Part shown: positions 6,128-50,157 of the stretch, in pieces
How the letters are laid out: every line of letters begins with the position of its first letter
Numbering within the stretch: position 1 is the first letter of the stretch
Source of the DNA: Seonamhaeicola algicola
GTDB lineage: Bacteria > Bacteroidota > Bacteroidia > Flavobacteriales > Flavobacteriaceae
DNA: 64,000 nt
Assembly: GCF_007997385.1 (NCBI RefSeq)
Contig: NZ_VOSC01000012.1
Location: 496,001-560,000 of the forward strand
Direction: 5' to 3'
Position numbers and translations under genes: made by a program
Notes under the pieces: generated by a model
The model's input: the letters and a program-made list of their open reading frames with translations, nothing else
Database searches by the model: none
What the model was told of the DNA's origin: nothing

Positions 6128-6229
6128 ACAGTTTTTAAACACTTCTAAAATGTTAAAAAAATGTTAAAACTCGAAATGCAGCGGGAGTACATGTCTGTTT
6201 TTTAGAACATAATAATACAAGCATTAATT

Positions 6230-7342: not shown

Positions 7343-7412
7343 AACAACAGGCTTATGTAAAATTACAATTACTAACTAAAGTCGTTTTTGTTCTTAAGAA
7401 GAATAAAAAAAA

Positions 7413-7440
7413 ATCGGAAAATGCTGCAACATTTCCCGAT
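7413..7440 (+). promoter_or_regulatory. Leader hairpin between fecR and susC
   Basis: ATCGGAAAATG (7413-7423) pairs with CATTTCCCGAT (7430-7440) around a 6-base loop, with a single mismatch. No T-run follows, so it is not a standard terminator. It lies 55 bases upstream of the susC start and could be an mRNA leader element or stability hairpin. Confidence 0.45.
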
Positions 7441-7495
7441 GATATGACGCAATTAAACTAAATAATAGATTAACCACATTTAACATCACAAAAGT

Positions 7496-10933: not shown

Positions 10934-10946
10934 TAAAAAAAATATT

Positions 10947-12746: not shown

Positions 12747-12858
12747 ATGTCAAATTTAAATGTAATATTGTTTTCACTATTAAAATTATTTTAACAATAA
12801 AATCCTCCTAAAATTCAAAAGCATTAATATATAAGTTAGCTTTTGAGTTTTAGTTTGA

Positions 12859-12891
12859 AAATGCACCGGAGTGTTTTGCTTCGGTGCATTT
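12859..12891 (+). terminator. Hairpin after susD, weak terminator
   Basis: AAATGCACCG (12859-12868) pairs with CGGTGCATTT (12882-12891). The tail is only AT-rich without a T-run. It lies 112 bases after the susD stop and could reduce read-through into the sulfatase gene. Confidence 0.5.
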
Positions 12892-12963
12892 ATAAATATT
12901 GTAAAAACGGCTTTAAAAATTAAATAAGTTATATCTTTAAATTAATAATCAACTTGTAAAACA

Positions 12964-34721: not shown

Positions 34722-35744
34722 TTAGTTGTAAACTTGCACCAATTCCTGTTGTATAGTGTTATTATCTCCACGCATTTGCATAGTTACTTTTTTCTGTTTA
34801 AAATCAAAATATAAAGCGCCAAAGCTATAAGTGTGTATTACATCACCATGTCTTAAAGAATTAGCTTCTCCTTTAAAGTTAAAACTAGCATGTGTTAAAC
34901 CGCTAGAGGTAAAATCTATTAATGGATAAGGTATTGCTTTGTGTTTTAATTTTGAAAATTCTGAAATATGCCTGTCACCAGATAAAAGTATAACTCTTTT
35001 AGCGTTAGATGAGGCAATTAAATTTAGAAGCTTTTCTCGTTCATTAGGAAAGTTTGCCCATTTTTCATAAGGATGTTCTTGGGCTATGGTTTGTATACTA
35101 CTAACAATAACATTAAAATCAGCTGTAGAGTTATGTAATTCATTATTTAACCATTCCCATTGTTTTGTGCCTAACAAAGTTCTGTTTTCTTGTGAGCCAT
35201 TAATTTCAGCTTTTGAAATGCCAGTTCTAAAGTAGCGTGTATCAAGTAAAATAACTTTAATACTCCCTTTGTTAGTTTTAAAAATTTCAGAAGAATATAT
35301 GCCTTCTTGGTTTCTTCTAGGATCGTTTTTTGATACATTAAAGAAATCTAACATTAATTGTTGGCTTTCTTTCTTTTTAGGGTATTCTGTACCTGCATCA
35401 TTTTTACCAAAATCATGGTCATCCCAAATACCAATAATTTTAGTGTTTTTTACTAATTCAGCATAACCATTTTGTTTTTGTTGCATTTCATAATCGGCCT
35501 TTATTTTATTCATGTCTTCAGAATCTCCATAAATATTATCGCCTCCCCAAATCCATACATCAGGTTTTAAGTTTAAAACATCATCCCATAGTAAGTTGTT
35601 TTTATTTGGTTTGTTGCATGAACCAAATGTAAGTGTAAAGTCTGTAGTGTTTTTTTCTGAAAGTACTTCATTTTCATTATTTAGTTTAGTGCTTTTGCAA
35701 GCAAAAAAAAGTACTGTAAAAAAAAGTATACTTATATATTTCAT
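34722..35744 (-). CDS. PhoD-like alkaline phosphatase, lipoprotein
   Basis: A 340-residue exported protein with lipobox FFACK (Cys16). It has the PhoD-type metallophosphatase pattern: FGSCNKPNKNNLLWDDVLNLKPDVWIWGGDNIYGD, GIWDDHDFGKNDAG, VILLDTRYFR and ILLSGDRHISEF. PhoD enzymes release phosphate from phosphomonoesters or diesters outside the cell. It lies downstream of the Oar-like receptor gene on the same strand, though a strong terminator lies between them, so expression may be partly separate. A role in organic phosphate scavenging is inferred. Confidence 0.88.
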   Translation of the reverse strand: MKYISILFFTVLFFACKSTKLNNENEVLSEKNTTDFTLTFGSCNKPNKNNLLWDDVLNLKPDVWIWGGDNIYGDSEDMNKIKADYEMQQKQNGYAELVKNTKIIGIWDDHDFGKNDAGTEYPKKKESQQLMLDFFNVSKNDPRRNQEGIYSSEIFKTNKGSIKVILLDTRYFRTGISKAEINGSQENRTLLGTKQWEWLNNELHNSTADFNVIVSSIQTIAQEHPYEKWANFPNEREKLLNLIASSNAKRVILLSGDRHISEFSKLKHKAIPYPLIDFTSSGLTHASFNFKGEANSLRHGDVIHTYSFGALYFDFKQKKVTMQMRGDNNTIQQELVQVYN

Positions 35745-35777
35745 TATTATTTGTTTTATTATAATTAATTTCTGTTT

Positions 35778-35813
35778 AAAAGGTTTACAGAAGAAATAAA
35801 TCTTCTGTAAACC
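35778..35813 (-). terminator. Terminator between the Oar-like receptor and the PhoD-like gene
   Basis: GGTTTACAGAAGA (35782-35794) pairs perfectly with TCTTCTGTAAACC (35801-35813) around a 6-base loop. On the minus strand the stem is followed by TTTT (35781-35778). It follows the receptor stop by 53 bases. Confidence 0.85.
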
Positions 35814-35866
35814 AGCCTTTTTAGTTTAATAATTTCTCATTAAGCAAAGGCAACTAACAATGTTGT

Positions 35867-38800
35867 TTAAAAAGAGTATTTTGCGCCAAGTTGTAGCCTC
35901 CATGGTGTACCACCAATAGGCTCTGTACCTGCACCAGTTTGTACGTTGTATGAGTAAGAATTTGTTGCTTGGTCAAATCCATTTACTTTCATTAGTTCTC
36001 TGTTTCCGTAGTTGTGGCTTGTTCCCCATTCTTTGTTTAATAAGTTAGCTAAGTTAAATACATCGGCAGATAGTTGTAAGTTTTGTTTACCGTAAAACTT
36101 AATGTCTTTAGTTAAGCGCATATCTACAGTGTAATAAAAAGGGTTTTTACCACCATTTCGTTTTGCAAAACCACCAAAGCTTTCTCTTAAATAATCTTTA
36201 TAGCCTTTTGTAGTTTCAGGATCGTTTAATATTTGGTTGTAAGCTTCGGCTATTTCAGTTGGGGTATTTGGGTTGTTAGGGTCATAAACATAAGCTATAT
36301 CATTACTTAAATTAAAGTCTCCATTAACACTTGTGGTATTATCTACTTTAAATGAATACCTAGAACCACCTGTACCTATTGCAGTAAGGCCTAATTTAAA
36401 GCCTCTCCAGGTTGGAGTTGCACCGTTTAAAATAACTTTACTTCCAAAGTGATTATCTGAATATCCGTAATTTAAGGTTCTTGGGTCTCCTTCAACAGGT
36501 AAAAATGTAGAGGTGTTTGCAACGCAGCAGTTATATGAAGAGTTGTCTTTTGTTTTGTTAAATGTTATACTTGCATTTAAGTATCCATCTTTTCCAATTT
36601 TAGATCCGCCATTAATAATCAATGCAGCTTGGTCTAATATGCCATCTGATGTTAATAATAAAGCGCGTCCTACTTTATCAGTTTTTCTTGAGGCTTTCCA
36701 ATCTACCCTTCCATTACTACCAATGGTGTTTGCTGGTACAAAAACATCTCTTCCGTTAGGAGTTGTAAAAAAAGGATCGTCTACTAAATTAGCTTCTTGA
36801 TAGGTGTAGTTATTTTTTGTATGGCTTAATAAAGCATTAATGCCTAAATAAATACCGTTATCAAAAAAGTGTGTGTAGTTTAAATTAGCCTTAAAGGTTG
36901 TTGGAACTTCAAAATCATCACTTACAGCGTTAATTGTAGAAAAAGGTGTTTCGCCATCTGGCACACCTGGTACAGTAGATGGGTCTTGCCTATATGCTTC
37001 AAAATTTGGAGGAGGTACATTATCTCCAGATACATCAATGGCACCTAATAATACGCCACTATTTTGAATGTTGTTTACTTGGGCATAGTAATGTGGTTGC
37101 GATGAAAATACACCACCACCAAGTTTTAAAATATCTTTGTCATTACCATTTATATTCCAAGTCATTTGTAATCTTGGTTGAATATTATCAAAATCTGTAG
37201 GTTGATTGCTTGTTTTTATACCTAATTCGTCATACACAACAGGGTTGAATGCTCCTGCTTTTGAAAAAATAGTAGCATCCCAACGTAAACCTGCAATTAT
37301 ATTAATGTTTTTATGAATGTTAAAATCGGCTTCAGCAAATAAAGATAAATCATAAACGGTTTGTTCTACTACAGGAGGTACACCTGTTAAAGGTACTTCT
37401 CTTGCATATCTGCTTGCGGTTTCATTTTCAAAATCATCTAAAGAATCAAAAAAGAAGCGTCCGTTTTGCTCATTTGATAATAATGTTTCTAAATATGTAA
37501 TGGTGTTGTCTGTACCAAAAGTATAGTTTACATTATCTGTACTTAAGTAAGTAGTATTTGCAATATGTACTTGTTGTTCTAAATTGGTTTCAGGAGAATA
37601 ACGTTGGCCACCTAACTGAAAGGTTCTAGATCTAGTATTACCGTTTGGCAATTGAGATGTTACATCAACTATGGCTCTAGGAATGTTAGAACTAGGTAAT
37701 TGCGAACTTGGTAAATAAGCACGTTCTGCGTGTTGGTATTGTAGTTTAAATTCATTGGTTACTTTTTCTGAAAATACAGAGCGTAAGGATAACAATGTAC
37801 TGTTTTCATGAGACTCAAAGTCTGACCAAGATTCTGCAATTTCAAAGTTAGAATTGTCACTTGTGCTCATAGGGCTTTTGTACTGATTGTATAAATTTCT
37901 TAAAGTAAGCGTATGCTTATTGTTAATTTGCCAATCTAAACGCACAAATAAGTTGTGTGCTTGTGTTTCTCTGTCAAATTGCCCTACTTGTTTTGCATCA
38001 CTAACGCCGTATTGGTTTCCTGCAATGTCTAAAAATCTATCTAAATTTTCTTGTGTTACACCGTAACGGTTTTCATCATCTTCAGATTGAATATCTGCAA
38101 TGGTTACTGGGCTCCCTGCATCTTGTCTTTCATAAGTTGTAAAAAAGTGTAACTTGTCTTTAATAATTGGACCACCTAAGCTAATACCTGTTTGTAGGGT
38201 ATAAAAATCAGCATCTCTTTCTTGCCCCCTAATATCATATTTGCTTTGTAAAGCATCGGCTCTGTAAAAGCCAAAAGCACTACCGTGAAATTCATTTGTT
38301 CCAGATTTTGTTACTGCATTTAAAGAACCGCCACTTTGACGCCCTTGAGTTACTGTATAATCATTAGTGGAAACTTCAAATTCTCTAATAGCTTCTTGTG
38401 AAATGGTAAAAGGGCCACGGCCTACTTCGCCAGCAGTTAGTGTATTACGCGCGTTAGCTCCATCAATAGTAATATTGGTAGATGTTCTTCTTTGTCCTCC
38501 TAAGTTTAAAGATCCGCCTCCTTGTAGTGGAGATAAGCTAGTTAAACGTGTAAAGTTTCTACCTTCTGCAGGTAAGCTTTTAATTTGCTGACTGCTAATT
38601 TTTGTAGAAGCACCTAGTTGTTTTATACGTTTTGTCATGCCGCTGGTTTTTAGTACAACAGCTTCTAAATCATATGCGCTTTCTTCTAAATTAATATTTA
38701 ATACAATTTCATCACTTAAATTTAATTCTAAATCATTTTGAGTAACGGTTTTATAACCTATGTATGAAACTGTAATGGTGTAAGGGCCAAGAGGTAATTG

Positions 38801-39010
38801 TTTTAAAATAAAATCACCTTCCATGTTAGAGTTGGTACCCGTTTTAAAACCTGTAGCTGTGTTTTGTATTAAGATGTTTACTCCTAATAAAGGCGCGTTA
38901 TTAGTATCAGTTATTTTTCCTTTAATTGATGCATTGGTTGATTGGGAAAAGGTTGATACTGAGCATAAAACTATAGTTATTAAAACTAAAATTTTGTTCA
39001 TTGTTTTCAT
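35867..39010 (-). CDS. Oar-like TonB-dependent receptor
   Basis: A 1047-residue outer-membrane protein. Signal peptide to about residue 22 (CSVSTFSQ), then a CarboxypepD-regulatory-like domain (IKGKITDTNNAPLLGVNILIQ), a region SGMTKRIKQLGASTKISSQQ before the plug, the plug (LPAEGRNFTRLTSLSP, INIDGANARN-like TNITIDGANARN), and a long barrel ending QLGAKYSF. The long plug with SGGSLNAVTKSGTNEFHGS is typical of Oar-type receptors, which have no SusD partner. The PhoD-like gene follows, and a Pho-box-like repeat lies upstream, so uptake of a phosphate-containing compound is a reasonable guess. Confidence 0.9.
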   Translation of the reverse strand: MKTMNKILVLITIVLCSVSTFSQSTNASIKGKITDTNNAPLLGVNILIQNTATGFKTGTNSNMEGDFILKQLPLGPYTITVSYIGYKTVTQNDLELNLSDEIVLNINLEESAYDLEAVVLKTSGMTKRIKQLGASTKISSQQIKSLPAEGRNFTRLTSLSPLQGGGSLNLGGQRRTSTNITIDGANARNTLTAGEVGRGPFTISQEAIREFEVSTNDYTVTQGRQSGGSLNAVTKSGTNEFHGSAFGFYRADALQSKYDIRGQERDADFYTLQTGISLGGPIIKDKLHFFTTYERQDAGSPVTIADIQSEDDENRYGVTQENLDRFLDIAGNQYGVSDAKQVGQFDRETQAHNLFVRLDWQINNKHTLTLRNLYNQYKSPMSTSDNSNFEIAESWSDFESHENSTLLSLRSVFSEKVTNEFKLQYQHAERAYLPSSQLPSSNIPRAIVDVTSQLPNGNTRSRTFQLGGQRYSPETNLEQQVHIANTTYLSTDNVNYTFGTDNTITYLETLLSNEQNGRFFFDSLDDFENETASRYAREVPLTGVPPVVEQTVYDLSLFAEADFNIHKNINIIAGLRWDATIFSKAGAFNPVVYDELGIKTSNQPTDFDNIQPRLQMTWNINGNDKDILKLGGGVFSSQPHYYAQVNNIQNSGVLLGAIDVSGDNVPPPNFEAYRQDPSTVPGVPDGETPFSTINAVSDDFEVPTTFKANLNYTHFFDNGIYLGINALLSHTKNNYTYQEANLVDDPFFTTPNGRDVFVPANTIGSNGRVDWKASRKTDKVGRALLLTSDGILDQAALIINGGSKIGKDGYLNASITFNKTKDNSSYNCCVANTSTFLPVEGDPRTLNYGYSDNHFGSKVILNGATPTWRGFKLGLTAIGTGGSRYSFKVDNTTSVNGDFNLSNDIAYVYDPNNPNTPTEIAEAYNQILNDPETTKGYKDYLRESFGGFAKRNGGKNPFYYTVDMRLTKDIKFYGKQNLQLSADVFNLANLLNKEWGTSHNYGNRELMKVNGFDQATNSYSYNVQTGAGTEPIGGTPWRLQLGAKYSF

Positions 39011-39400: not shown

Positions 39401-40609
39401 CTAAATAGTTTCTATAGCCCTTTTTAAGTTAGTAACTGATGGGTGCGTGTTATTACCGCCAGCTTTTTTATTTTCTTCAAAGAAAACATTAAATGCATTT
39501 AAGGCGTTTTCTTTTTCTTTTTTATGTAAATATAGCTTTGCTAACATTAAATTACCCATTATAATTCCTGTTTCTTTATCTGATGAAAAATCTTGAGCTT
39601 TCTTTAAAAAGTCATTAAAAATTGATGTTTCTGCAGCTAGTTTTGGGGTTCTTAAAATTTCATCGCAAATACTGTTATAAACGTATATGTATTTTTGGTC
39701 TCCTTTTAGTGCTTCTACATCTTCAATTTTACCGTTGTACCATTTTTTTAGTTGATTATTCTCTATATAAAAAGTGTAAGTTAAATTTTTTGAGATATCT
39801 CCGAAACCACTTATATCAAACTGTTTATTACATCTTTCAATTTCGGTATATAGTTTTTTTAAACTTTTACAGTTCTTTACATAAGCTTTTAAGTGTGCCA
39901 TTATGGGGCTTCCTAAAACACTGTTGTAAGTATAATCTTCAGCTATTTCTTTTATTTGTAATTTGTTTTCAAGCAAATAATTGTAAGCTTTTGAGTTGTA
40001 TGGGTATTGAGCTGATGCTATTATGTAAAACAAATCTTTTGTTATAAACTTATCTAAAGATGATAGTGCAATAATATCTTTAGCTACAATAGAAGCATTC
40101 TCTTTATCATATTGATCATTTAAAGCTTTTAAATAGGTTGTTAAAAAGTTGTAATCTCTATTGCCAGCTATGTATTTTTCTTTTAAAACATCAATTCGTA
40201 AGTTGGGGTTTAAGGCAGATTTTGCGCCCTCAATTAAATCTTCAGCTTGTTTACCGCCTACTAATTTGTGTACGGCATTTCCGTTACCATCAATAAATAA
40301 TAAAGTTGGGTAGGCTTGTACACCATATTTTTTGTTTAAATCTATACCTTCACCTTTTTCCATATCTACTTTAATACTTATAAAGTTTTCATTAAAAAAG
40401 TTGCCTACTTCTTCTTGCGGAAATATTTCTTTTGTCATCCATTTACAAGGGCCGCACCACGTAGTGAAGCAATCCATAAACAACAATTTATTTTCTTTTT
40501 TTGCCTTTGCTAGTGCTTCGTTAAATGATGAATGTTCAAACGAAACCCCTTGAGCAAATGACACGTTGCAAACTAGTACAACTGCTAGTAGTGTTAAAAT
40601 TTTTTTCAT
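39401..40609 (-). CDS. Exported thioredoxin-domain protein
   Basis: A 402-residue exported protein with signal peptide to about residue 20 (VLVCNVSFAQ). The thioredoxin fold is at the N-terminus, with the active site WCGPC (Cys52, Cys55) in FTTWCGPCKWMTKEIFP and the cis-Pro segment YPTLLFIDGNG. It is followed by about 260 helical residues of no recognised family, with possible TPR-like helices. The layout (thioredoxin first, helical tail) differs from TlpA. It is the last gene of a run SusC, SusD, TlpA, TlpA, thioredoxin on the minus strand, and precedes a terminator. Confidence 0.85.
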   Translation of the reverse strand: MKKILTLLAVVLVCNVSFAQGVSFEHSSFNEALAKAKKENKLLFMDCFTTWCGPCKWMTKEIFPQEEVGNFFNENFISIKVDMEKGEGIDLNKKYGVQAYPTLLFIDGNGNAVHKLVGGKQAEDLIEGAKSALNPNLRIDVLKEKYIAGNRDYNFLTTYLKALNDQYDKENASIVAKDIIALSSLDKFITKDLFYIIASAQYPYNSKAYNYLLENKLQIKEIAEDYTYNSVLGSPIMAHLKAYVKNCKSLKKLYTEIERCNKQFDISGFGDISKNLTYTFYIENNQLKKWYNGKIEDVEALKGDQKYIYVYNSICDEILRTPKLAAETSIFNDFLKKAQDFSSDKETGIIMGNLMLAKLYLHKKEKENALNAFNVFFEENKKAGGNNTHPSVTNLKRAIETI

Positions 40610-40715
40610 TATTTTGTTTTTATTTTTACGTAACTATGACGCTATATTTTTAAAACCCTCTCGTTATAAAAATGTTAAAGTTTATTTTAGATTACGGTTA
40701 TAAAACTGCACCTAT

Positions 40716-42119
40716 TTAGTTTAGTAGTGTGTTTAATAACGGCCTAATTTCTTTGCTTGATGGCCTTGGTGCATTTGCGCTAACTATGTTACCGTTTGGA
40801 TCTATTAAAATAAATTTAGGAATACCATTTACTTTATAATCTTTAATGAATTTTGAGTTGAAAGCTTTATCTGCTAAAAGCTGCACACCTCCCATATTAT
40901 TATTAGTTACCATGTTTTTCCATGTGTTGTAAGCTTTTTTAGTATCTACAGATATGCTTACAAAGGCAATGTTTTTATTGTGAAATTCTTTTTCTACTTT
41001 TTCCAAAAAAGGAATTTCGTATTTACATGGGCCACACCAAGTTGCCCAAACATCAATGTAAACATATTTACCTTTAAAATCTTTTAAAGATGTGGATCCA
41101 CCAGCATGATTTTCGTAGTTTTCAAACGTTGGTGATGGCTGTCCTTTACTTAAAACTTTTAGTTCATTATAAAGTTTTGTTATAGTTGCTTTATCAGTTT
41201 CATTAGTAGCATTTGTTGCATAATAATTATAAATCGGTTCTAATACATCTTCTCTAGGTAAACCTGTGTTAGTTTCATAAAACAACATTTTATTTTTAAT
41301 GAATTCACTAGGGATGGTATTATAAACTTTTAAGCGCTCTAATATAGGAGGATTGTTTTTTTTAGTATTTTTTACCGTAATATCCTTATAAAAATTAAAC
41401 AATTGGTATTGATACAATCTTGAAAACATAAAATCTTCATCTCTATCATAAGTTAAAGTATCTAAAGTCTTTGTTAAAGTTTTTGAAGGTGTGTATGTAG
41501 AATCTTTACTTAAGTATGGGTATACATTTTTGTACCTAGCAATAAAATCTATGTATTGATAATTTATAGCTCTTTTTTCCTTGTTTTTTATACTGTTTGG
41601 TATACTATCTGTGTTTGATAATGCTGTTTCTAAACTGGCCTTTATACTGTTTATTTTAGAAATAAAATTAGCTTCTTGTAATGAAAAAATACTTGCGTTT
41701 CCAGTTGGGTTTTTATAAGCATTGTTTACAATGCTATCTTTTTTTACATGGTATTTAGCAACTCCTGAACCTTCGCCATTTAGTTTTAATGAATTTTTGA
41801 AATTATTTGCGTTATAGTTAATGCTAAGGTTTGCGCCATTGTAAAGATGCAGAGTCATTTTATTGTTGCCTTGGGCATACCAATAGATACCGTTTAATAT
41901 GTTTAATGTATCTCTAAATGTACCATCTTCAGAAATTTTAATACTGTGTTTTGGGTTCGGGTTTACATCAAACATTAAATCACTAGTTAAGGTGATATTT
42001 TTTTGATTTGAATTATCAATTTTTCCAGAAATCACAATATAATCTACTGGTTTAGTTTGGGTTTGTTTACATGCAACTACACTAAATGCTATACTAAATG
42101 CTAAAAGAAGTTTTTTCAT
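40716..42119 (-). CDS. TlpA-family thiol-disulfide oxidoreductase, lipoprotein with DUF4369-type domain
   Basis: A 467-residue lipoprotein (lipobox FSVVAC, Cys17). The N-terminal 110 residues are beta-rich and DUF4369-like (YIVISGKIDNSNQKNITLTS), the middle is helical, and the last 150 residues form a TlpA thioredoxin domain with WCGPC (Cys362, Cys365) in WATWCGPCKYEIPFL and cis-Pro in VNGIPKFILID. It probably faces the periplasm and works on disulfides. It lies 7 bases after the gene at 42127-43200, with which it is probably co-translated, and 106 bases before the third thioredoxin gene. Confidence 0.88.
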   Translation of the reverse strand: MKKLLLAFSIAFSVVACKQTQTKPVDYIVISGKIDNSNQKNITLTSDLMFDVNPNPKHSIKISEDGTFRDTLNILNGIYWYAQGNNKMTLHLYNGANLSINYNANNFKNSLKLNGEGSGVAKYHVKKDSIVNNAYKNPTGNASIFSLQEANFISKINSIKASLETALSNTDSIPNSIKNKEKRAINYQYIDFIARYKNVYPYLSKDSTYTPSKTLTKTLDTLTYDRDEDFMFSRLYQYQLFNFYKDITVKNTKKNNPPILERLKVYNTIPSEFIKNKMLFYETNTGLPREDVLEPIYNYYATNATNETDKATITKLYNELKVLSKGQPSPTFENYENHAGGSTSLKDFKGKYVYIDVWATWCGPCKYEIPFLEKVEKEFHNKNIAFVSISVDTKKAYNTWKNMVTNNNMGGVQLLADKAFNSKFIKDYKVNGIPKFILIDPNGNIVSANAPRPSSKEIRPLLNTLLN

Positions 42120-42126
42120 TTTTATT

Positions 42127-43200
42127 TTAGTTTAAAATTTTTGCTAATTCATCTGTTAAATTATCGGTGTATTGGTGCTTGTAAATTATTTTTCCTTCGG
42201 GTGATACTAATATTAAATGCGGAATAGCAACTACAGCATATTTAGAGCCAACATCAACAGGTAAATTAGCATCATCTATAACTTGTGGCCATGGTAATTT
42301 GTGTTGTTTTACAGCTTCAACCCACTTGTCGTAATTTTTATCTGTACTAATACTTAAAATGGCTAGCTTTTCTTCAGAATATGATTTTCTTATTTCTTTT
42401 AATTCAGGAAAACCTTTAATACATGGCCCACACCAATAGGCCCAAAAATCTATTAAAAGATGTTTACCTTTATAATCTGATAATGAAATGTCTTTATTTT
42501 CTATACTTTTTAATGTGAAATTTGGTGCTGGTTGCCCTACTTTTACTAAGTCTAAATTTTTACGACGTTCCACCAAGGGTTCTAAAAAGTAATTGTTGAG
42601 TAAACTAACATCAAAACTATTTATAACTTTATCTAATGTTGTTGCATCTGCACTCCAAAATTGCGCATAAGCCGTTTGCGCTAGTGCCACATTTTCTGGG
42701 TGCTTTTTAATGGTTTCAATAAGTTTATTGGCGTAATTGTTTATAAAATTAGTTTCGGCTTCGGTTGGGTCTTTTTTGTATTTTAAGCGTTCCATTTTAG
42801 CTATTCCTAAAGCGTTACTAATTTTTAAAAACTCATTGTGTTTTGGTGTGCCTTCAACAATAAGACTATCGTTTTCAATAATTAATTTATATGTTCCTAC
42901 ACCAGTAAAAAGTTGGGTGCTGTAAGTTTTGTTGTTATGCCTTAGGGTTACACGTCTTAAAGCTTGGGTTGTATCTATTTCAATAATTGATACGTTGTTT
43001 TTTAAAGAATCTTTTATGGTAAATTTATTGTATTCTTCCATACTTTGAACGCGTTGGTAGGGAGCAATAGATATTTCACCTGTGCCAACACCACTAGTAT
43101 GTACTTCTATTTTACAGGTGCTTAATGGTGTTTCTTTTTTTGTGTTACAAGCTGTAATTATCAAAAAAAGAAACAATAGTTTTATTGTTATTTTTTTCAT
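42127..43200 (-). CDS. TlpA-family thiol-disulfide oxidoreductase, lipoprotein
   Basis: A 357-residue lipoprotein (lipobox LIITAC, Cys18). The first 100 residues are beta-rich (CKIEVHTSGVGTGEISIAP) and distinct from the DUF4369 domain next door; the C-terminal thioredoxin domain has WCGPC (Cys257, Cys260) in WAYWCGPCIKGFPELKEI and cis-Pro in VVAIPHLILV. It is the first of the three thioredoxin-fold genes after the second SusD gene, separated from it by a hairpin of 13 base pairs. Confidence 0.88.
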   Translation of the reverse strand: MKKITIKLLFLFLIITACNTKKETPLSTCKIEVHTSGVGTGEISIAPYQRVQSMEEYNKFTIKDSLKNNVSIIEIDTTQALRRVTLRHNNKTYSTQLFTGVGTYKLIIENDSLIVEGTPKHNEFLKISNALGIAKMERLKYKKDPTEAETNFINNYANKLIETIKKHPENVALAQTAYAQFWSADATTLDKVINSFDVSLLNNYFLEPLVERRKNLDLVKVGQPAPNFTLKSIENKDISLSDYKGKHLLIDFWAYWCGPCIKGFPELKEIRKSYSEEKLAILSISTDKNYDKWVEAVKQHKLPWPQVIDDANLPVDVGSKYAVVAIPHLILVSPEGKIIYKHQYTDNLTDELAKILN

Positions 43201-43272
43201 AAATAATGGAATTATTGAAGCGGTTTTAAATAAAATTTAAACCTTTATAAAGCTTCGTTTTTTTTGATGAAA

Positions 43273-43304
43273 GAAGCCAAATAGCGTAATTGCTATTTAG
43301 CTTC
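43273..43304 (-). terminator. Hairpin between the second susD and the thioredoxin genes
   Basis: GAAGCCAAATAGC (43273-43285) pairs with GCTATTTAGCTTC (43292-43304) with one mismatch. On the minus strand the tail TTTC is a weak T-run, so it would stop only part of the transcripts and lower thioredoxin expression relative to SusCD. Confidence 0.6.
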
Positions 43305-43332
43305 TTAAGCTTAAAAGGAATTAGAAAACTTT

Positions 43333-44745
43333 TTAATCTCTTATATTTTCGCCAATTTCAGGGTTTTGCGAAATATATTTTTGAGCTATTGGTAAAGCCC
43401 AATTATTGCTGTTTGCAGGCAATGTATATGTAGTGCCATTGTACGTGTGTGTAATATCTATAGTAGGTGTATCAAATACATTATAACGTTTTAAATCGAA
43501 GAAGCGATGCCCTTTCATTATAAGCTCTAAACGTCTTTCTCTTTTTGCCCAAGCCAGTACTTCAGCTTGATCTGTGCTAGATAGAGGTGTAAATTTACCT
43601 GTATCCATGCGTTTTTCGCGTAGTGTATTCAAATCTGCCAAGGCGGCATCTAAATTGTTTAATCTTGCATAACATTCTGCCCTGGTAACATACATTTCTG
43701 GCGTAGAAGGCCCAATAGGTTTAAAGTTTCTTATAAAACCAACGGCATAAATTTTCTCAGGTCCAGTAAGTCCGTAAAGTTCAGGGCCTGCAAATGTTCG
43801 TCTACGTTGGTCATTGTCTTCTAAAAGGCTTAAATAATCATCAGAAGCTATTGTAAAACTATACGTTGCATTTGATGCTTTGTGCCAAATAATTTCTGGA
43901 TCTTCTTGTGGTTTATCACTTTGTCTTGCAATGCCAGGGAAAAACCAATCTGGATAGGTGTTAAAATCCACTACCGTGTTTGATAAAGCTAATGCATCAT
44001 TTGAAGCGTTAAGAGCATTCTCATAATCGCCCATGTATAAATAAACTCTTGCTAATAAACTATAAACACCCGCTTTAGATGGACGATGTACTAGCTCTGG
44101 GGTATCGGGTAAATATAAAACAGCCTCGTTTAAATCGTTCAAAATAAGTTCATATACCTCTTTTACTGTAGCACGTGGAAACTGAAGGCCTGTTAATTGA
44201 CTTGTGAGTCTTAAAGGTACGCCTAAATCAGTATCGGCTGTGGTTGGGTTGTAATGCTTACCATATAAATTTACAAGGTAAAAATATGCAAAAGCCCTAT
44301 GTGCTAATGCTTCGGCTTTTAGCGCCATTTGTTCATCTAAAGTACCGTCGGTTGTGTTTAAAATTTCTTCTAACACAATATTGGTAACATATATTTGGCC
44401 ATAAAGTGCAGACCAATCTGGATCTTCTTGTGCTGGTGTGTAAATGTTATCATTCCAAGTGAAGGTATTTGTACCAACATCTCCTTCAGGATAAAAACTA
44501 AGAAGGTTATCGGTAATCATAACATCATCACTTGCTAATTCTGTATTAGCAGCTGTATTAACAAAACCAGGGGATATTACTTGTAGGCCATCAACACCAA
44601 ATACGTCGGTTTGGTCTAAAAGTAGCCTATAATCATTAATTTTAGTGGGAATTACTTGACCTTTTGGTTGAATGTCTAAATATTCTTCTCTATCACAAGA
44701 AAACACTAAAAGCGCAAGACAAAGTATGTATATAGTATGTTTCAT
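43333..44745 (-). CDS. SusD/RagB-type outer-membrane lipoprotein (second locus)
   Basis: A 470-residue lipoprotein (lipobox LVFSC, Cys17). It begins REEYLDIQPKGQVIPT, like many SusD proteins, and shows AEALAHRAFAYFYLVNLYGKHYNP in the TPR core and KRERRLELIMKGHRFFDLKRYNVF at the C-terminal side. It is shorter than the other SusD in this window (599 residues). It starts 11 bases after the susC stop, so the two are coupled. The ligand is unknown and no glycan enzyme is beside it. Confidence 0.93.
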   Translation of the reverse strand: MKHTIYILCLALLVFSCDREEYLDIQPKGQVIPTKINDYRLLLDQTDVFGVDGLQVISPGFVNTAANTELASDDVMITDNLLSFYPEGDVGTNTFTWNDNIYTPAQEDPDWSALYGQIYVTNIVLEEILNTTDGTLDEQMALKAEALAHRAFAYFYLVNLYGKHYNPTTADTDLGVPLRLTSQLTGLQFPRATVKEVYELILNDLNEAVLYLPDTPELVHRPSKAGVYSLLARVYLYMGDYENALNASNDALALSNTVVDFNTYPDWFFPGIARQSDKPQEDPEIIWHKASNATYSFTIASDDYLSLLEDNDQRRRTFAGPELYGLTGPEKIYAVGFIRNFKPIGPSTPEMYVTRAECYARLNNLDAALADLNTLREKRMDTGKFTPLSSTDQAEVLAWAKRERRLELIMKGHRFFDLKRYNVFDTPTIDITHTYNGTTYTLPANSNNWALPIAQKYISQNPEIGENIRD

Positions 44746-44756
44746 GAGTTTATTAT

Positions 44757-47700
44757 TTAAAAGTTAGCATTTATACCAACCGTAAAAGTTGGTCTTTGTG
44801 AAAAAATGAAGCTTTCAGGGTCTACATTCCATTTATTGAAATTTATTAATGCTAAATTTCTGGCTTGCACATTGAAGCTTAGGTTGTTAAAGCCAATAGC
44901 GCTGGTTGTTTTAGGGTTTAAATTGTATGATAAAACAACTTCTTTTAAGCGTATGTGTGAAGCATCATCTATGTTTTGACTACCGTACCTGTAATATGTT
45001 AAATATGCATCTAGTCTAGCATCTGCTCTTGTAGTAGGTATTCTAGGAATTGTGGTTGTTAACTCATCACCTGGGTTTTGCCACCTGCTTTCAAAGTCTT
45101 CATGTATGTAGTGGTTACCACCAAACCTATTAGGAAGTTCTGCGTAGTCTAAGAAATTAGTGTTTCTAAATACATGGCCCAATTTAAAGGTTGTTAAGGC
45201 TCTTAAAGTAAACCCTTTGTAGGTGAATTGGTTTATCCAGCTGCCATAATATTTAGGCAGTGTGGTACCTTCATATTTTAAAGCTTCAACAACGTTAATG
45301 TCTTCATTAACTAAATCACCATTTTCATTTAAAAATAAAGGATCACCTTCGTCATTTAACCCTTCATATTGGTAGCTGTATAAATAGCGTAATGGTGTGT
45401 TTACTAGGGGTGTTTGAGTAATAGTGTAGGCAAATGGTGTGTCATTAGGAACATCAACTTTAGTTACCGTATTCTTGTTGTAGCTAAAATTTAACGTTGT
45501 GTTGTATTTAAAATCTTTTGCATCAACTACTAAGCCTCGTAAAGAAATATCTAGACCTTTGTTTTCCATTTCACCGGCATTAATTAGAGCAGAGTTAAAC
45601 CCAAGTATTGATGGGAAAATAACGTTAGATAACAGGTCTTCACTTTTTCTATTATAATACTCTATACTACCGTTAATTCGGTTGTTAAACAAACCAAAAT
45701 CTAAACCAAGGTTAGTTACATATACTTTTTCTAACCTTAATTCTGGGTTTTTTACGTTAGAAATAAAACCGTATTGGTTGCCCGTAAACGGATCACTAGA
45801 AATACCAACTTGTACAAATGGGCTTGTACTGTTATTTACATTACCGTTGCTACCGTAAGTGGCTCTAAGTGATAGGTTATTAATGGTTTTACTATTAAAA
45901 AAGTTTTCATTATGTATGGCCCATTTACCACCAATAGAGTATAACGGAATGTTTTTGTATTTTTTACTGGCACCAAAAAGGTTAGCATCATCTAAACGTA
46001 CACTGCCGGTTAAACTATATCTTCTGTCAAAAGCATATGCAGCATTACCGTAATAAGATATGTATCTGTTTTCTGCTTCTGTAATTCGGTCAATAAATGG
46101 TATTTGTCTTTCTCCAAAAAAGTACACCGTAGGGAACAAATCAGCATAATTTATGTTTTTTGCAAAATCTAACGATTGATCATCATACGCGTATAGCCTA
46201 TTGCTGTTGCTGTTAGACATAACTTTTCTAACCTCGTAACCACCAATGGCTGTAATGTTATGTAAGTTGTTGTTGAATGATTGGTTGTAGTTTAATTGTA
46301 ACCTACCAGATTGAGCGTTTTGATTGAAGTTTGATCTATCTAAAATACTACCTTCAGGTATAGCACTAACGGCACTACCTGTGGCAGTTGTTGTATAGGT
46401 ATTTATTAAATTTCTAACAAAAAAAGTGTTTTCGTTATACAAATTTCTGGTTTTTGAAGCGCCTTCTTCATACTGATAACGTCCCTCAACAGATAAATAA
46501 TTTGTTATGTTATATTTTAAAGCAGCCTGTAAACGTATTTGAGAAAAGGTTGATTTGTTGTTTTTATTCTCAAACTCTTGTAGTAAATTATAATCCCAGT
46601 TATAAGGGTATCCATTTTCTACGCTACGAGCATCTTTAAATTCTTGATAAAACCCTTGCGATTGTGTTAAGTAATTACCGTTTTCATCAATTATATTTTG
46701 ATATTGATCTAAACCTTGTGCATCTCCTATAGACATACCGTTAAACTTATTTCTTGTATGCGAATAGTTTATTCTACCAGTAAAAGTAAGTTTTGGTGAA
46801 ATGTCTATTTGATTACTTATGTTAGCAATAATTTGATCACTATTATTATTTAAAAGAGAATTATCGTTCTTATTTTGATTGTATACTATGGATGCTTGAT
46901 AACTACTATTAGCGCCGCCACCGCCAACACTTAAATTATGTTGTATCCAAGTTTGGTTAGAAAGAAACAAGTCTTCAAACTGTTGCCTGCTGTCAATATT
47001 TTGAAGTCTGTTTATTGTTTCATCAGCTTCAGCCTGGGTAATGTTACCGTTATTTAAAAGAAGGTATGTGTTTAGCCCTTCGCTTATGTTAGAAGGATTA
47101 AAGGCATTAGGTAGGTTTCTCCAAGCATTATCAGCCATGTGTTTTTCAAACTCTAAAAAACTAGCTGTTGATGCATAGGGAAGTTCGTGTAAATCAGTTT
47201 GTGGAGTTATTGAAAAGTTTGATGAATAATTAACCATGGTTTTGCTGTTTCTTTCACCTTTTCTGGTAACAACAACTATAACACCGTTAGCCGCTCTAAT
47301 ACCCCAAATAGATGCCGCAGCTGCATCTTTTAAAATGGTTATACTTTCTACATCGTTGGGGTTTATAGTCTCTAAACCTTGCTCTATAGGAAACCCATCT
47401 ACAACCACTAAAGGCTGGCTTACAGAATTTATAGTACTAATACCTCTAATAATTGCAGAGCTACCTCCATTAGTATCAAATAAAACCCCAGCAACTTCAC
47501 CTTCAATTTTATCAAATACATTTTGAGTGGTTTTTATGCCAAGTGTTTTTTGGTTAATTTTTTCAAACGAGCCAGTAGTGCGTTCTTTTGAAATTTTTTG
47601 GTAACCCGTACTAAGTACAACTTCGTCTAGTTTGTTGGCATTTTCTTGGAGTACTACATTAAGTTCGGTTTGGTTGTTTACCACAAACTCTTGAGTTAAA

Positions 47701-48266
47701 AAACCAATAAAAGATACTTTAATAATATGGCCTTTTAAGGCTGTAACGGTGAAGCCGCCATCAAAATCTGAAGCCACACCTTTAATAAAATCACCACTGG
47801 CAGTTGTAATAGTTATGTTTGCACCTGGTAGTGGTGCTCCGTTTTTATCGGTTACAGTACCTTTTATTTGTTGCTGGTAAACATCTTGCCTAATAAACTC
47901 TTTTTGTTTTAAAACAATTGTTTTATTAGGTGTTAATTCATACACGTAATTACTAAACGATAGGCTTTTTGATAGTAAGTTATGAACTGTTATAGTGCCT
48001 TTTTTTAAGTGAATTTCTGGGGCATTTTTAAAATCTTCGGTTTTGTAAATGAACCTATAATTTGTTTTTTCTTTTATAAGTTCAAAAACTTCTATAACAG
48101 ATATTTCTTGTTCTTTATCAATGTTTATTTTGATATTTTGTGAAAAACTGTTGTTAGAATTAAACCCAAAGGATAAGGCGCAAAATAAAAAAATGAGAGT
48201 TTTCATAAGCATCAAAGAGAGTTGTTTCCTATATTTTATAGGAACTCGAATAAATTTAATTTTCAT
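44757..48266 (-). CDS. SusC/RagA-type TonB-dependent receptor with STN domain (second locus)
   Basis: A 1169-residue outer-membrane transporter. After an N-terminal extension (MKIKFIRVPIKYRKQLSLM) and the signal sequence (IFLFCALSFGFNSNNSFSQ) come the STN domain (about 45-125, KEQEISVIEVFELIKEKTNY), a CarboxypepD-regulatory-like domain (about 135-215, GTVTDKNGAPLPGANITIT), and the plug (VEGEVAGVLFD, NGVIVVVTRKG). The barrel ends FTVGINANF. The STN domain should contact the FecR protein encoded just upstream. Unlike the first locus, the genes downstream of its SusD are thioredoxin-fold proteins. Confidence 0.94.
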   Translation of the reverse strand: MKIKFIRVPIKYRKQLSLMLMKTLIFLFCALSFGFNSNNSFSQNIKINIDKEQEISVIEVFELIKEKTNYRFIYKTEDFKNAPEIHLKKGTITVHNLLSKSLSFSNYVYELTPNKTIVLKQKEFIRQDVYQQQIKGTVTDKNGAPLPGANITITTASGDFIKGVASDFDGGFTVTALKGHIIKVSFIGFLTQEFVVNNQTELNVVLQENANKLDEVVLSTGYQKISKERTTGSFEKINQKTLGIKTTQNVFDKIEGEVAGVLFDTNGGSSAIIRGISTINSVSQPLVVVDGFPIEQGLETINPNDVESITILKDAAAASIWGIRAANGVIVVVTRKGERNSKTMVNYSSNFSITPQTDLHELPYASTASFLEFEKHMADNAWRNLPNAFNPSNISEGLNTYLLLNNGNITQAEADETINRLQNIDSRQQFEDLFLSNQTWIQHNLSVGGGGANSSYQASIVYNQNKNDNSLLNNNSDQIIANISNQIDISPKLTFTGRINYSHTRNKFNGMSIGDAQGLDQYQNIIDENGNYLTQSQGFYQEFKDARSVENGYPYNWDYNLLQEFENKNNKSTFSQIRLQAALKYNITNYLSVEGRYQYEEGASKTRNLYNENTFFVRNLINTYTTTATGSAVSAIPEGSILDRSNFNQNAQSGRLQLNYNQSFNNNLHNITAIGGYEVRKVMSNSNSNRLYAYDDQSLDFAKNINYADLFPTVYFFGERQIPFIDRITEAENRYISYYGNAAYAFDRRYSLTGSVRLDDANLFGASKKYKNIPLYSIGGKWAIHNENFFNSKTINNLSLRATYGSNGNVNNSTSPFVQVGISSDPFTGNQYGFISNVKNPELRLEKVYVTNLGLDFGLFNNRINGSIEYYNRKSEDLLSNVIFPSILGFNSALINAGEMENKGLDISLRGLVVDAKDFKYNTTLNFSYNKNTVTKVDVPNDTPFAYTITQTPLVNTPLRYLYSYQYEGLNDEGDPLFLNENGDLVNEDINVVEALKYEGTTLPKYYGSWINQFTYKGFTLRALTTFKLGHVFRNTNFLDYAELPNRFGGNHYIHEDFESRWQNPGDELTTTIPRIPTTRADARLDAYLTYYRYGSQNIDDASHIRLKEVVLSYNLNPKTTSAIGFNNLSFNVQARNLALINFNKWNVDPESFIFSQRPTFTVGINANF

Positions 48267-48318
48267 AAATTTGAGTGTTTTTAGTTAGTTAAACATTTAA
48301 TTAATTAAATACGCCTTA

Positions 48319-48367
48319 AAAAGGAACTGAGAATGGTACGGTAGGATGTCTAAACTCTGTTCCTTTT
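48319..48367 (-). promoter_or_regulatory. Leader hairpin between the second fecR and susC
   Basis: AAAAGGAAC (48319-48327) pairs with GTTCCTTTT (48359-48367) across a 31-base loop that can fold further through GAG/CTC. On the minus strand the stem is followed by a T-run, so it could act as an attenuator or partial terminator. It lies 52 bases upstream of susC, the same position as the hairpin of the first locus. Confidence 0.5.
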
Positions 48368-48376
48368 CCCTTTTTA

Positions 48377-49513
48377 TTATTCTATAATTACTTGTCCATT
48401 TTGAATAATAAAAGACATATTTGTTGCGTTTTGTATCATTGTTAAAATTTCTTCTATATTTTGTGTTTTATCAAAAGAGCCTCCAAAAAGCTCATGCTCA
48501 ATATTTTTGTTTTTAAAGTTTACATCAACATTATACCATCTAGATAAAACCATCATTATTTCTTTTAAAGGCTTGTTTTTAAAGCTAAATACGCCGTCTT
48601 TCCACGAAATTTCATTGTAAACATTAATGGTGTTTACTATAATTTTGTTGTTGTTAGGGGTAATTATTGATTGCTGATTGGGTTTTAAAACGGTACTATT
48701 TGTATGGTTAGTAACCATTACTTTTCCTTCAACCAAAGTGGTTAAAATATGTGTGTCTTCTTTATAGGCTTTTATATTAAATTCTGTTCCTAAAACTTCA
48801 ATAGTTTGGTGGTTGTTTAATACTTTAAATTTAGTGCCATTGTTAATAGTACTTGGTGATACATCAAAATAAGCTTCGCCATATACAAGCTCTACAGTTC
48901 TGGTTTCTCCTTCAATAAAATTTGTTGGGTATTTTAATTGCGAATCTGAATTTAACCAAACTTTAGTACCGTCTGATAGGTTTACCAAAAATTGTCCGCC
49001 TCTTGGAATGGTTAAATAATTGTAAGATATACTTTGTTTTGTGGTAGCGGGTGTACTGTAAATTAATTCTTTACCATTACTTTTAATATTGTTGTTAATA
49101 TAATTTTGCCCTTTTTCTAGGGCTATTTTACTGCCGTCTTCAAGAGTTAGAGTAGCTTTATTTGTACCAGCATGTATGTTGTTTTGTGTAGCAACTTTAA
49201 CACTGTTTGTATTATTGTTTAGCATAAAATAACCAAAACCAAGTAGTGCAATTACAGATGCTGCAATGCCGTACCTAAATAACCTTTTAACATGTAAACG
49301 TTTTTTGTTAATTTGCTGTAAGCTTTTATTTAGCGCATTGGTATAAGGAAATTTGTGAAGCGCATTGGTTAAATGGTTAACTTCTACAAATGCGTTGAAA
49401 TATTCAAGGTTGGCTTTGTTTTGTAACCAAGCTTTAAGTATTTCAGACTCTTTTTCAGAGATAGTATTATCTATTAATTTAACAATAATTCTATCTATTT
49501 TTTTTTGGTTCAT
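48377..49513 (-). CDS. FecR-family anti-sigma factor (second locus)
   Basis: A 378-residue inner-membrane protein. The cytoplasmic part is about residues 1-78 with the typical start IDRIIVKLIDNTISEKESEIL. One membrane helix lies at about 83-98 (GIAASVIALLGFGYFML). The periplasmic FecR domain (LTIPRGGQFLVNLSDGTKVWL, VELVYGEAYFDVSPS) and a DUF4974-type domain (NKPLKEIMMVLSRWYNVDV) follow. It is divergent from its sigma gene and heads the fecR-susC-susD-thioredoxin order. Confidence 0.93.
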   Translation of the reverse strand: MNQKKIDRIIVKLIDNTISEKESEILKAWLQNKANLEYFNAFVEVNHLTNALHKFPYTNALNKSLQQINKKRLHVKRLFRYGIAASVIALLGFGYFMLNNNTNSVKVATQNNIHAGTNKATLTLEDGSKIALEKGQNYINNNIKSNGKELIYSTPATTKQSISYNYLTIPRGGQFLVNLSDGTKVWLNSDSQLKYPTNFIEGETRTVELVYGEAYFDVSPSTINNGTKFKVLNNHQTIEVLGTEFNIKAYKEDTHILTTLVEGKVMVTNHTNSTVLKPNQQSIITPNNNKIIVNTINVYNEISWKDGVFSFKNKPLKEIMMVLSRWYNVDVNFKNKNIEHELFGGSFDKTQNIEEILTMIQNATNMSFIIQNGQVIIE

Positions 49514-49620
49514 TTTTTTGTAAGCTTATTTATGGTAATGACGTAAATTTTTTAAAACCCCCTTGGTTTTAATTTATTTTTTTAACATTTGTATTACAAA
49601 AACATAATATTTTAGTTAAG

Positions 49621-50157
49621 CTGAAAGATAAAAATATCATATTAGAACGTATTAAAAAAGGCGATCAAAGTGCTTTTGAACAGTTGTATAAAACATACTA
49701 CGAGAACCTTTGTGTGTACTTAAAAAGTTATACCTCAGACCACGCAAAGATTGAAGATACGGTTCAAGATGTTTTTATTAAATTATGGCATAAAAGAAAA
49801 CGCTTATCTGTTAAAAAATCATTAAAAAGTTATCTTTATAGAGCTGCTTATAATACGCTTATGGATAGTTATAGAAAGCAACAGCGAAATGATGAAATGC
49901 TATCTTCATATTACCACACTGCAGTAATGAGAGCTATTGAAACAGATACTACAATTAAAACAGATAAGATTACTAAAATGAAATCTTGTATAGAATTGTT
50001 ACCAGGTAAGTGTAAACAGGTTTTTGTAGAAAGTAAAATTTCGGGTTTAAAGCGTGCCCAAGTTGCCGAAAATTTAAACATTACTATTAAAACGGTTGAA
50101 GGGCATATTACAAAAGCATATGCATTATTAAAAATGTGTTTAGAAACAACAACTTAG
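49621..50157 (+). CDS. RNA polymerase ECF sigma factor, FecI-like (second locus), non-standard start
   Basis: Region 2 begins before the first usable start codon: ILERIKKGDQSAFEQLYKTYYENLCVYLKSYTSDHAKIEDTVQDVFIKLWHKRKRL is normal for the family only if translation begins near 49609-49621. There is no ATG, GTG or TTG upstream in frame before a stop codon at 49570-49572. Candidates are CTG at 49621 or ATT at 49609; the TTG at 49684 would remove part of region 2. Region 4 is LPGKCKQVFVESKISGLKRAQVAENLNITIKTVEGHITKA. The gene diverges from fecR with about 100 bases between. Confidence 0.8.
   Translation: MKDKNIILERIKKGDQSAFEQLYKTYYENLCVYLKSYTSDHAKIEDTVQDVFIKLWHKRKRLSVKKSLKSYLYRAAYNTLMDSYRKQQRNDEMLSSYYHTAVMRAIETDTTIKTDKITKMKSCIELLPGKCKQVFVESKISGLKRAQVAENLNITIKTVEGHITKAYALLKMCLETTT

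Follow-up and report, generated by a model that had tools for sequence, protein, structure and literature searches.

A SusC/SusD importer of Seonamhaeicola algicola genetically tied to disulfide reductants, a peptidase and reducing power suggests widespread uptake and dismantling of disulfide-bonded peptides

What does a SusC/SusD importer carry when its gene neighbours encode thioredoxins? The question is raised by positions 39401-50157 of a 64,000-nucleotide stretch of the Seonamhaeicola algicola genome (contig NZ_VOSC01000012.1, positions 496,001 to 560,000), hereafter called the window. The coordinates and strands of the open reading frames (ORFs) bear out the order given in an initial annotation of this DNA, namely a divergent sigma factor gene on the plus strand followed on the minus strand by fecR, susC, susD, two genes for TlpA-like lipoproteins and one for a 402-aa thioredoxin (Table 1), and the Pfam and NCBIfam assignments were consistent for all seven genes. 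The SusC/RagA family TonB-linked receptor adjoins the SusD lipoprotein, with 11 bp between the two genes, and an extracytoplasmic function (ECF) sigma factor and FecR are encoded beside the receptor, which at the level of genes is the FecI/FecR surface-signalling arrangement. As the initial annotation had stated, the locus contains no glycosidase, sulfatase or peptidase that the Pfam and NCBIfam scan could match; it thus has neither the carbohydrate-active enzyme nor the sulfatase that define a polysaccharide utilisation locus, and the window locus has no M16 peptidase gene beside its receptor gene, as a Fus-like system would.

Neighbourhood searches in both directions support the conclusion that, across several classes of Bacteroidota, the thioredoxins are partners of this SusCD pair and that the link is not due to chance. 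A thioredoxin-fold gene was found in the same operon as 81/117 SusD genes scoring at least 100 bits against the window SusD, 5/17 of those at 50-100 bits and 0/40 of those below 50 bits (81/117 vs 0/40, Fisher 2e-16, with the 17 genes of 50-100 bits excluded). Adding loci that had been chosen for their thioredoxin changed the two lower bands to 10/22 and 1/41, respectively. An operon was here defined as genes on the same strand with gaps of at most 400 bp, comprising up to six genes downstream and four upstream, and counting ORFs of at least 150 aa or with a profile match; ORF starts in the relatives' loci were assigned mechanically, the neighbour-family profiles were built from single proteins identified by Pfam, and the related SusD group is defined by the bit-score threshold and not as a clade. 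The initial annotation had named, among the outcomes that would reduce the link to chance, thioredoxin genes missing beside this SusCD pair in related genomes; this was checked and is not what the 81/117 count shows.

The SusD genes were drawn from 22 other loci of the S. algicola genome (of 24 SusD matches), from 43 other places in 149 genomes of the family at E ≤ 1e-30 (at most 10 candidates scored per genome), from 32 loci outside the close group, and from 80 named loci of the species collection, these being the best 80 of 129 confirmed places. The 32 loci stem from a random draw of 33 from at least 129 listed places, a pool without close-group places and several short or broken ones, in which the 33rd draw was replaced by a Flavivirga region. 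SusD genes with less than 3 kb downstream and near-identical copies were excluded (198 rows reduced to 186 and then 174), locus L052 was too short to judge, and L181-L192, chosen for their thioredoxin, stand outside the 81/117 count. An operon thioredoxin accompanied 25/43 SusD genes of the family genomes and 53/71 of the named loci that could be judged, distributed over Sphingobacteriia (19/20), Flavobacteriia (19/28), Bacteroidia (6/8), Cytophagia (3/3), Chitinophagia (3/8), Saprospiria (1/1) and unplaced genomes (2/3). The thioredoxin gene lay downstream in 60 of the 81 operons and only upstream of susC in the other 21, 16 of which are from Sphingobacteriia, so that the partnership outlives gene order. 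The CxxC motif was retained in 110/114 operon thioredoxins. The reverse search for full-length relatives of the 402-aa protein (E ≤ 1e-30) returned 19 places in the 149 family genomes: 17 within a susCD run, one beside a sigma-fecR-susCD set (L181) and one elsewhere (L184), the runs being judged by eye. Within the S. algicola genome, 2/24 SusD genes have an operon thioredoxin, the window locus and L003. The latter (L003:4234-17642, on G000:C29) is a second sigma/fecR/susCD locus, in which five genes encode TlpAs and another a DsbD N-domain protein standing alone.

The three thioredoxin-fold proteins of the locus are built differently. An AhpC-TSA/Redoxin domain, a CxxC motif and an export signal (the last judged by eye) together point to TlpA-like reductases; inspection by eye showed a lipobox in each TlpA and an ordinary signal peptide in the 402-aa protein. 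The C..C motif begins at residue 52 of the 402-aa, residue 362 of the 467-aa and residue 257 of the 357-aa protein, in agreement with the CGPC positions of the initial annotation. Its assignment of DUF4369 to a TlpA, on the other hand, found no support, as neither the 357-aa nor the 467-aa protein gave a Pfam match to this domain up to E 1 and just one of ten proteins aligned with the 467-aa TlpA scored the domain, at 0.0096. In the AlphaFold model of the 467-aa protein (predicted local distance difference test score, pLDDT, 87.5), a beta region at the N-terminus leads through a helical middle to a thioredoxin-like C-terminal part, which matches thioredoxin-type domains of Bacteroides vulgatus. 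In the model of the 402-aa protein (pLDDT 90.5) a thioredoxin domain is followed by an all-helical part; the domain is nearest to the Bacteroides thetaiotaomicron protein 2kuc (52% identity over 116 columns) and also near DsbD C-domains, and a fold search with the whole model listed matches chiefly spanning residues 19-135. Cysteine 247 of the helical part is conserved, by eye, in the seven closest aligned sequences, window included. The additional cysteines 247, 260 and 315 of this part are retained in most close relatives, and a second redox site is possible. Acidic residues just behind the lipobox cysteine mark surface export. At positions +2 to +6, thioredoxins with a lipobox-like motif had on average 0.94 acidic residues vs 2.1 for the SusDs (in a subset of loci), which fits periplasm-facing thioredoxins and a surface-exposed SusD.

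The operons of relatives add peptidases and DsbD, which makes a disulfide-containing peptide the best-supported class of ligand. Among selected neighbours in relatives, Pfam identified M16, S9 and M1 peptidases, an HtrA-like protease, a met-zincin (DUF4953/DUF5117) and DsbD, the last through its N-domain, membrane domain and thioredoxin. The 117 related operons contained M16 in 25, S9 types in 3 and 13, HtrA-like proteases in 2, met-zincins in 11 and DsbD in 11 cases. Thioredoxin, M16 and DsbD occur together in one operon, by the 400-bp rule, in L035, L042, L044 and L103 (Aquimarina aquimarini). In Ancylomarina salipaludis, a thioredoxin of the 402-aa type (540 bits) is encoded next to susD, with DsbD and M16 on the same strand past a 1.4-kb gap. 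Genome G115 has an even longer run of SusD, DUF4843, PKD-like protein, M16, DsbD N-domain, DsbD, thioredoxin, pyridoxal phosphate (PLP) enzyme, thioredoxin reductase and M1 peptidase, and G006 has SusD, thioredoxin, M16, DsbD, three ATP-binding cassette (ABC) transporter genes, a PLP enzyme and thioredoxin reductase, with one small opposite-strand gene in between. In both G006 and G115, the thioredoxin reductase is a second copy standing at or near the end of the M16-DsbD cluster. The SusD of Flavivirga aquatica is 71-72% identical; there, the M16 and sigma genes converge, and the thioredoxin gene is followed immediately by that for thioredoxin reductase, encoded on the opposite strand. Sets of ABC transporter genes (ABC-2 type or with DUF4857) lie within some susCD-M16 clusters (L029:7962-10761, L223:3475-6866).

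In S. algicola itself, Pfam gave one M16 N-domain match, in an operon of M16, DsbD N-domain, DsbD and a class-V PLP enzyme located on another contig, with no susCD in 19.9 kb. Its nearest relatives among 44 M16s are those of Flavivirga aquatica (76% identity), beside the orthologous locus, and Aquimarina (65%), inside the locus; HxxEH is present in all 44 M16s longer than 800 aa. A genome-wide search, with at most five candidates scored per genome, placed M16s of 58-63% identity next, in a dozen other genomes. The class-V aminotransferase-family PLP enzyme, SufS-like but below the cut-off, stands behind DsbD in several genomes (L066:12342-13913 and relatives). The peptidase and the reductant supply are thus encoded in trans and, to go by upstream sequences, look co-regulated with the window locus. 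The proposal of the initial annotation that thioredoxins stand there instead of enzymes therefore held for the locus and was too narrow for the genome.

The apparent co-regulation concerns promoter-like sites. The pattern GGGTTTTAAAAA-N5-CGTCAT is common to the upstream regions of fecR and of the 402-aa thioredoxin gene, at distances of 24 and 26 bp from the start codons. No other exact copy exists in the genome, the next best having two mismatches, a count which reflects rarity and not independent discovery since the pattern was derived from these two sites. The 402-aa gene is set off by a 106-bp gap holding its own site and hence need not share a transcript with the genes upstream. The initial annotation had regarded independent transcription of the thioredoxin genes as evidence of chance; for this one gene, whose separate site matches that of fecR, this may half hold. 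A looser form, AGGG-N16-CGT[CA], was present within 120 bp upstream of 13/114 FecR, 1/45 M16, 1/199 SusC, 5/1110 unannotated and 0/161 thioredoxin genes; at the 402-aa gene, AGGG lies two bases closer than this spacing. The strict form, AAGGG-N16-CGTC, occurs three times in the S. algicola genome: before fecR, before the M16-DsbD operon, where AGGG begins 58 bp before the ORF, and 138 bp upstream of a thioredoxin reductase gene (TIGR01292, 378 bits; G000:C29:461785-462924 = L009:3569-4711). Across 22 genomes, 4/118 strict sites fell at most 700 bp before an M16 or DsbD gene (0.039 expected, P 9e-8), in S. algicola, Flavivirga, G115 and G144, and 3/115 did so when S. algicola was left out (0.038 expected, P 9e-6), in a test that used at least 79 M16/DsbD places and a 700-bp limit set after the first cases had been seen. 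The window sigma factor would read the three S. algicola sites, and related ECF factors may share them.

Together, these observations permit the locus to be read, with somewhat more confidence than doubt, as a regulated system that imports peptides or small proteins containing disulfides and is coupled to reduction in the periplasm and to proteolysis by M16. Covered by SusD as its lid, SusC would carry the ligand over the outer membrane, powered by TonB, and ligand binding would probably reach the ECF sigma factor as a signal passed on by SusC and FecR. Reduction of the ligand's disulfides in the periplasm would fall to the two lipid-anchored TlpAs and the soluble 402-aa thioredoxin; the ligand would unfold and then be cut by the M16 (insulinase-type) peptidase. 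The electrons would originate from NADPH and pass by way of thioredoxin reductase, cytoplasmic thioredoxin and DsbD to the TlpAs and the 402-aa thioredoxin, and finally to the imported disulfide. Peptidase and DsbD would here be supplied by the separate operon, which, like thioredoxin reductase, bears the promoter-like sequence that also precedes fecR. The chains that M16 enzymes enclose are short or unfolded, so that prior reduction of disulfides would be useful. For FusC, partial unfolding of ferredoxin is described in PMC6071955. The reading builds on gene content and order, conservation, cysteine content, the promoter-like sites and the relatives with the parts in one run; the ligand class, the direction of electron flow, the signalling step and the export and location of the proteins are predicted from these. 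A wider proposal, made tentatively and with more doubt than confidence, is a phylum-wide pathway in which one ECF sigma regulon joins SusCD, a complete electron chain (thioredoxin reductase, DsbD, two TlpA lipoproteins and the two-domain thioredoxin) and M16. Disulfide-locked peptides or small proteins would then be imported whole, reduced and digested, perhaps feeding cysteine sulfur to the SufS-like PLP enzyme of the trans operon.

A number of results weigh against such a peptide import system. No thioredoxin is present in 36/117 related operons, and in the 300-600 bit band just 9/23 have one, several others having one across the sigma gene. Among the random loci, 5/34 SusD genes have an operon thioredoxin, all at 59-100 bits, and the SusD of L185, without detectable similarity, has one as well, in a locus chosen for that thioredoxin. 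The SusD tree shows 19 thioredoxin changes and too few independent pairs for a comparison with M16 or met-zincin. Within the related group, the association of thioredoxin with M16 was not significant (P 0.09). Moreover, 11 related operons carry a met-zincin and no thioredoxin (0/81 thioredoxin operons vs 11/36 operons without), although this exclusion represents few independent events since met-zincin changes only four times on the tree. The met-zincin (DUF4953/DUF5117) operons without thioredoxin (L031, L045, L047, L049, L053, L054, L056, L061-L063 and L178) are possibly a sister peptide system. In favour of the reading, a relative of the S. algicola M16 occurs in 13/14 genomes with a thioredoxin-linked susCD of the group, counted by hand from locus maps, vs 33/135 others (P 7e-7), but this comparison is partly circular because some of the M16s sit in susCD operons themselves; in G014, the one genome of the 14 without it, the operon encodes an HtrA-like protease. 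This M16 was present in 31 genomes that had no SusD match at E ≤ 1e-30. Of 15 stretches around M16 relatives, some join susCD (L223, L224, L233-L236), whereas five (L225, L226, L227, L229 and L232, from G071, G134, G061, G131 and G084) contain M16 with DsbD or a DsbD N-domain and neither susC nor susD, so that M16-DsbD is a module often used by such SusCD pairs and not exclusive to them; the pair may contribute more broadly to the turnover of proteins in the periplasm. DsbD is near universal (148/149 family genomes) and therefore useless as a phylogenetic profile. Concerning the promoter-like sites, whose N16 spacing was picked after the fecR and M16 sites had been seen, the three strict sites of the S. 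algicola genome do not exceed the reversed control (four), nor is the count above that control in most relatives, and only site position was used as evidence. The thioredoxin reductase site was found at 1/24 copies in the 22 genomes, in S. algicola alone (0.012 expected), the 414-aa thioredoxin gene of Flavivirga has no clear site, and the L003 fecR of S. algicola is without the strict form.

The ligand could instead be a small thiol or disulfide compound, such as cystine, glutathione disulfide or a thiol-bearing metallophore, that is reduced by the thioredoxins, with the peptidases of relatives serving other ligands. This would agree with the lack of a peptidase in the window locus and with the 52/81 thioredoxin-bearing operons without any profiled peptidase. 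The solved relatives do not favour peptides either. RagAB of Porphyromonas gingivalis is a peptide SusCD, and it resembles the window pair in being of the general SusC/SusD type; the window SusC is no closer to RagA (4e-61) than to the SusC homolog 8aa4 (1e-60), and the window SusD matches RagB at 2e-8 and several SusD-like structures with higher scores. The closest solved pair by sequence is PDB 8ypt/8ypu (SusC 1e-86, SusD 1e-32). A small-thiol ligand is nevertheless rather unlikely, since M16, S9, HtrA-like or M1 peptidases are repeatedly added in relatives, and the S. algicola M16 resembles those of SusCD loci and bears the fecR-type site. Unlikely, too, is the piracy of a protein-bound cofactor, in which a small cysteine-rich or iron-sulfur protein would be imported for the metal or sulfur it holds, in the way that Fus takes up ferredoxin. 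It finds a parallel in the Fus arrangement of M16 peptidase and TonB-dependent receptor, as described in PMC6793856, and in the SufS-like class-V PLP enzyme encoded behind DsbD, directly or a few genes on, in S. algicola, in 6/15 M16 stretches and in L067, L044 and L058. This enzyme, however, scores far under the SufS cut-off (146 vs 475 bits), its match ending at 363 of 403 model positions, and no iron-uptake family was matched among the small selection of neighbours scanned.

Three further explanations place the thioredoxins outside ligand processing. They might belong to an envelope redox-stress defence that shares its regulator with a nutrient importer and repairs envelope proteins in general, which would be consistent with the general nature of the redox enzymes, thioredoxin reductase being present in 22/22 genomes and DsbD almost everywhere, and with the frequent occurrence of M16 with DsbD away from susCD. 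Its probability is low, as the linkage is limited to one SusD group and absent from 40 distant ones, and 18/19 relatives of the 402-aa protein are at susCD. The initial annotation had offered two functions side by side, import of something needing disulfide reduction and servicing of the receptors by the thioredoxins. The former gained from the linkage and from the peptidases and DsbD of relatives, while the latter, maturation or repair of the SusCD receptor, was set aside as highly improbable on the cysteine content of its supposed targets: the conserved neighbourhood is all that speaks for it, and SusC is an unlikely thioredoxin target because its single cysteine, residue 29, sits in the signal peptide region. 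In addition, 97/111 SusCs have no cysteine beyond residue 45, and the window SusD has, beyond its signal, the lipobox cysteine and one other. Chance or neutral co-location, to which the commonness of thioredoxin-like genes in these genomes might point, is hardly credible and was rejected on the forward and reverse neighbourhood counts, with 81/117 vs 0/40, several classes, two gene orders and reciprocal linkage.

Compared with known systems, the locus shares parts with several. ResA and DsbE serve cytochrome c maturation. The thiol-reducing pathways of TlpA/ResA/DsbE and DsbD are alike in having thioredoxin folds with CxxC and a DsbD supply, while the present thioredoxins are multi-domain and tied to a receptor. 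A classical polysaccharide utilisation locus has the same ECF sigma factor, FecR, SusC and SusD, and one is at hand at window positions 5540-14598, a second sigma/fecR/susC/susD locus of ordinary polysaccharide type in which a sulfatase takes the place of the reductases and peptidase. In the Fus systems (FusA-FusC, YddB-PqqL), a TonB-dependent receptor is genetically tied to a periplasmic M16 peptidase, in an association that is patchy and modular and in which other proteases may stand in for M16, according to PMC6793856 and PMC6071955. The likeness lies in this association; Fus is described there for Proteobacteria with FusA-type receptors, whereas the present system has a SusC with a SusD lid and an added thioredoxin/DsbD arm. 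The main text of PMC6793856 does not contain the words Bacteroidetes, SusD, thioredoxin or disulfide. On the best reading, the present system would work like Fus protease-associated import with an added reductive arm, but it is not classed as Fus because the window locus is without M16 and its receptor is of SusC type. Among the matches listed from open PubMed Central papers, no description of SusCD with TlpA or thioredoxin companions was found.

Some details of the locus and its surroundings complete the picture. The sigma ORF as listed, from TTG at 49684 to 50157, has the sigma-70 r2 and r4 regions and reaches 123.8 bits for Sig70_bacteroi1 (cut-off 126.4). Its open frame extends upstream past 49621 and it is probably longer than listed, the added residues resembling the N-termini of relatives and conservation setting in near 49621. 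By eye, no ATG, GTG or TTG was found in this upstream extension (window 49573-49684), and an unusual start codon, CTG at 49621 or ATT at 49609, is possible. The STN signalling domain was matched at E up to 1 by 6/9 aligned SusC N-termini; the window SusC gave no match. Predictions of intrinsic terminators (40 vs 55.2 in shuffles) and sigma-70 promoters (5 vs 6.2 in shuffles) in the locus were uninformative, and a tRNA was the sole Rfam match at gathering scores. Elsewhere in the window, another TlpA-like protein with a weak DUF5106 match (18729-20060) is encoded just behind the transcription-repair coupling factor gene, away from susCD, and 390 bp downstream of the locus (34722-39010) there is a beta-barrel protein of the outer membrane that has a CarboxypepD_reg domain, together with a PhoD-like phosphatase.

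Table 1. Genes and promoter-like sites of the locus, in window coordinates.
Feature	Position	Strand	Basis or content
ECF sigma factor, Bacteroidota sigma-70 family 1	49621..50157	+	ORF listing, Pfam/NCBIfam
Promoter-like site before fecR	49538..49564	-	AAGGG-N16-CGTC (49540-49564) and GGGTTTTAAAAA-N5-CGTCAT (49538-49560)
FecR-type anti-sigma factor	48377..49513	-	FecR and FecR_C
SusC/RagA TonB-dependent transporter with N-terminal extension	44757..48266	-	TIGR04056, 561 bits
SusD/RagB lipoprotein; acidic residues behind lipobox cysteine	43333..44745	-	SusD-like_3 and SusD_RagB over cut-off
TlpA-like lipoprotein, 357 aa, C-terminal thioredoxin domain, CGPC 257-260	42127..43200	-	AhpC-TSA/Redoxin/Thioredoxin_8
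TlpA-like lipoprotein, 467 aa, beta region, helical middle and thioredoxin domain, CGPC 362-365	40716..42119	-	AhpC-TSA/Redoxin/Thioredoxin_8 and model
Promoter-like site before 402-aa thioredoxin gene	40636..40658	-	GGGTTTTAAAAA-N5-CGTCAT
Exported thioredoxin, 402 aa, N-terminal thioredoxin domain (CGPC 52-55), all-helical C-terminal part	39401..40609	-	Thioredoxin family match and model

For many SusCD pairs that lack carbohydrate enzymes, no ligand assignment is known. An importer tied to disulfide reducers, a peptidase and a source of reducing power suggests a widespread uptake and dismantling of disulfide-bonded peptides, and a definable SusCD group linked to disulfide reduction and peptidases provides a predicted ligand class, cysteine-rich peptides or small proteins, together with a testable regulon. 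Insulin-like peptides, bacteriocins and iron-sulfur proteins are conceivable examples of such ligands, all of them guesses. If the reading is true, the idea of import by a receptor plus an M16 peptidase, described for Proteobacteria, would extend to Bacteroidota, and the added reduction step would explain how disulfide-bonded cargo could unfold.

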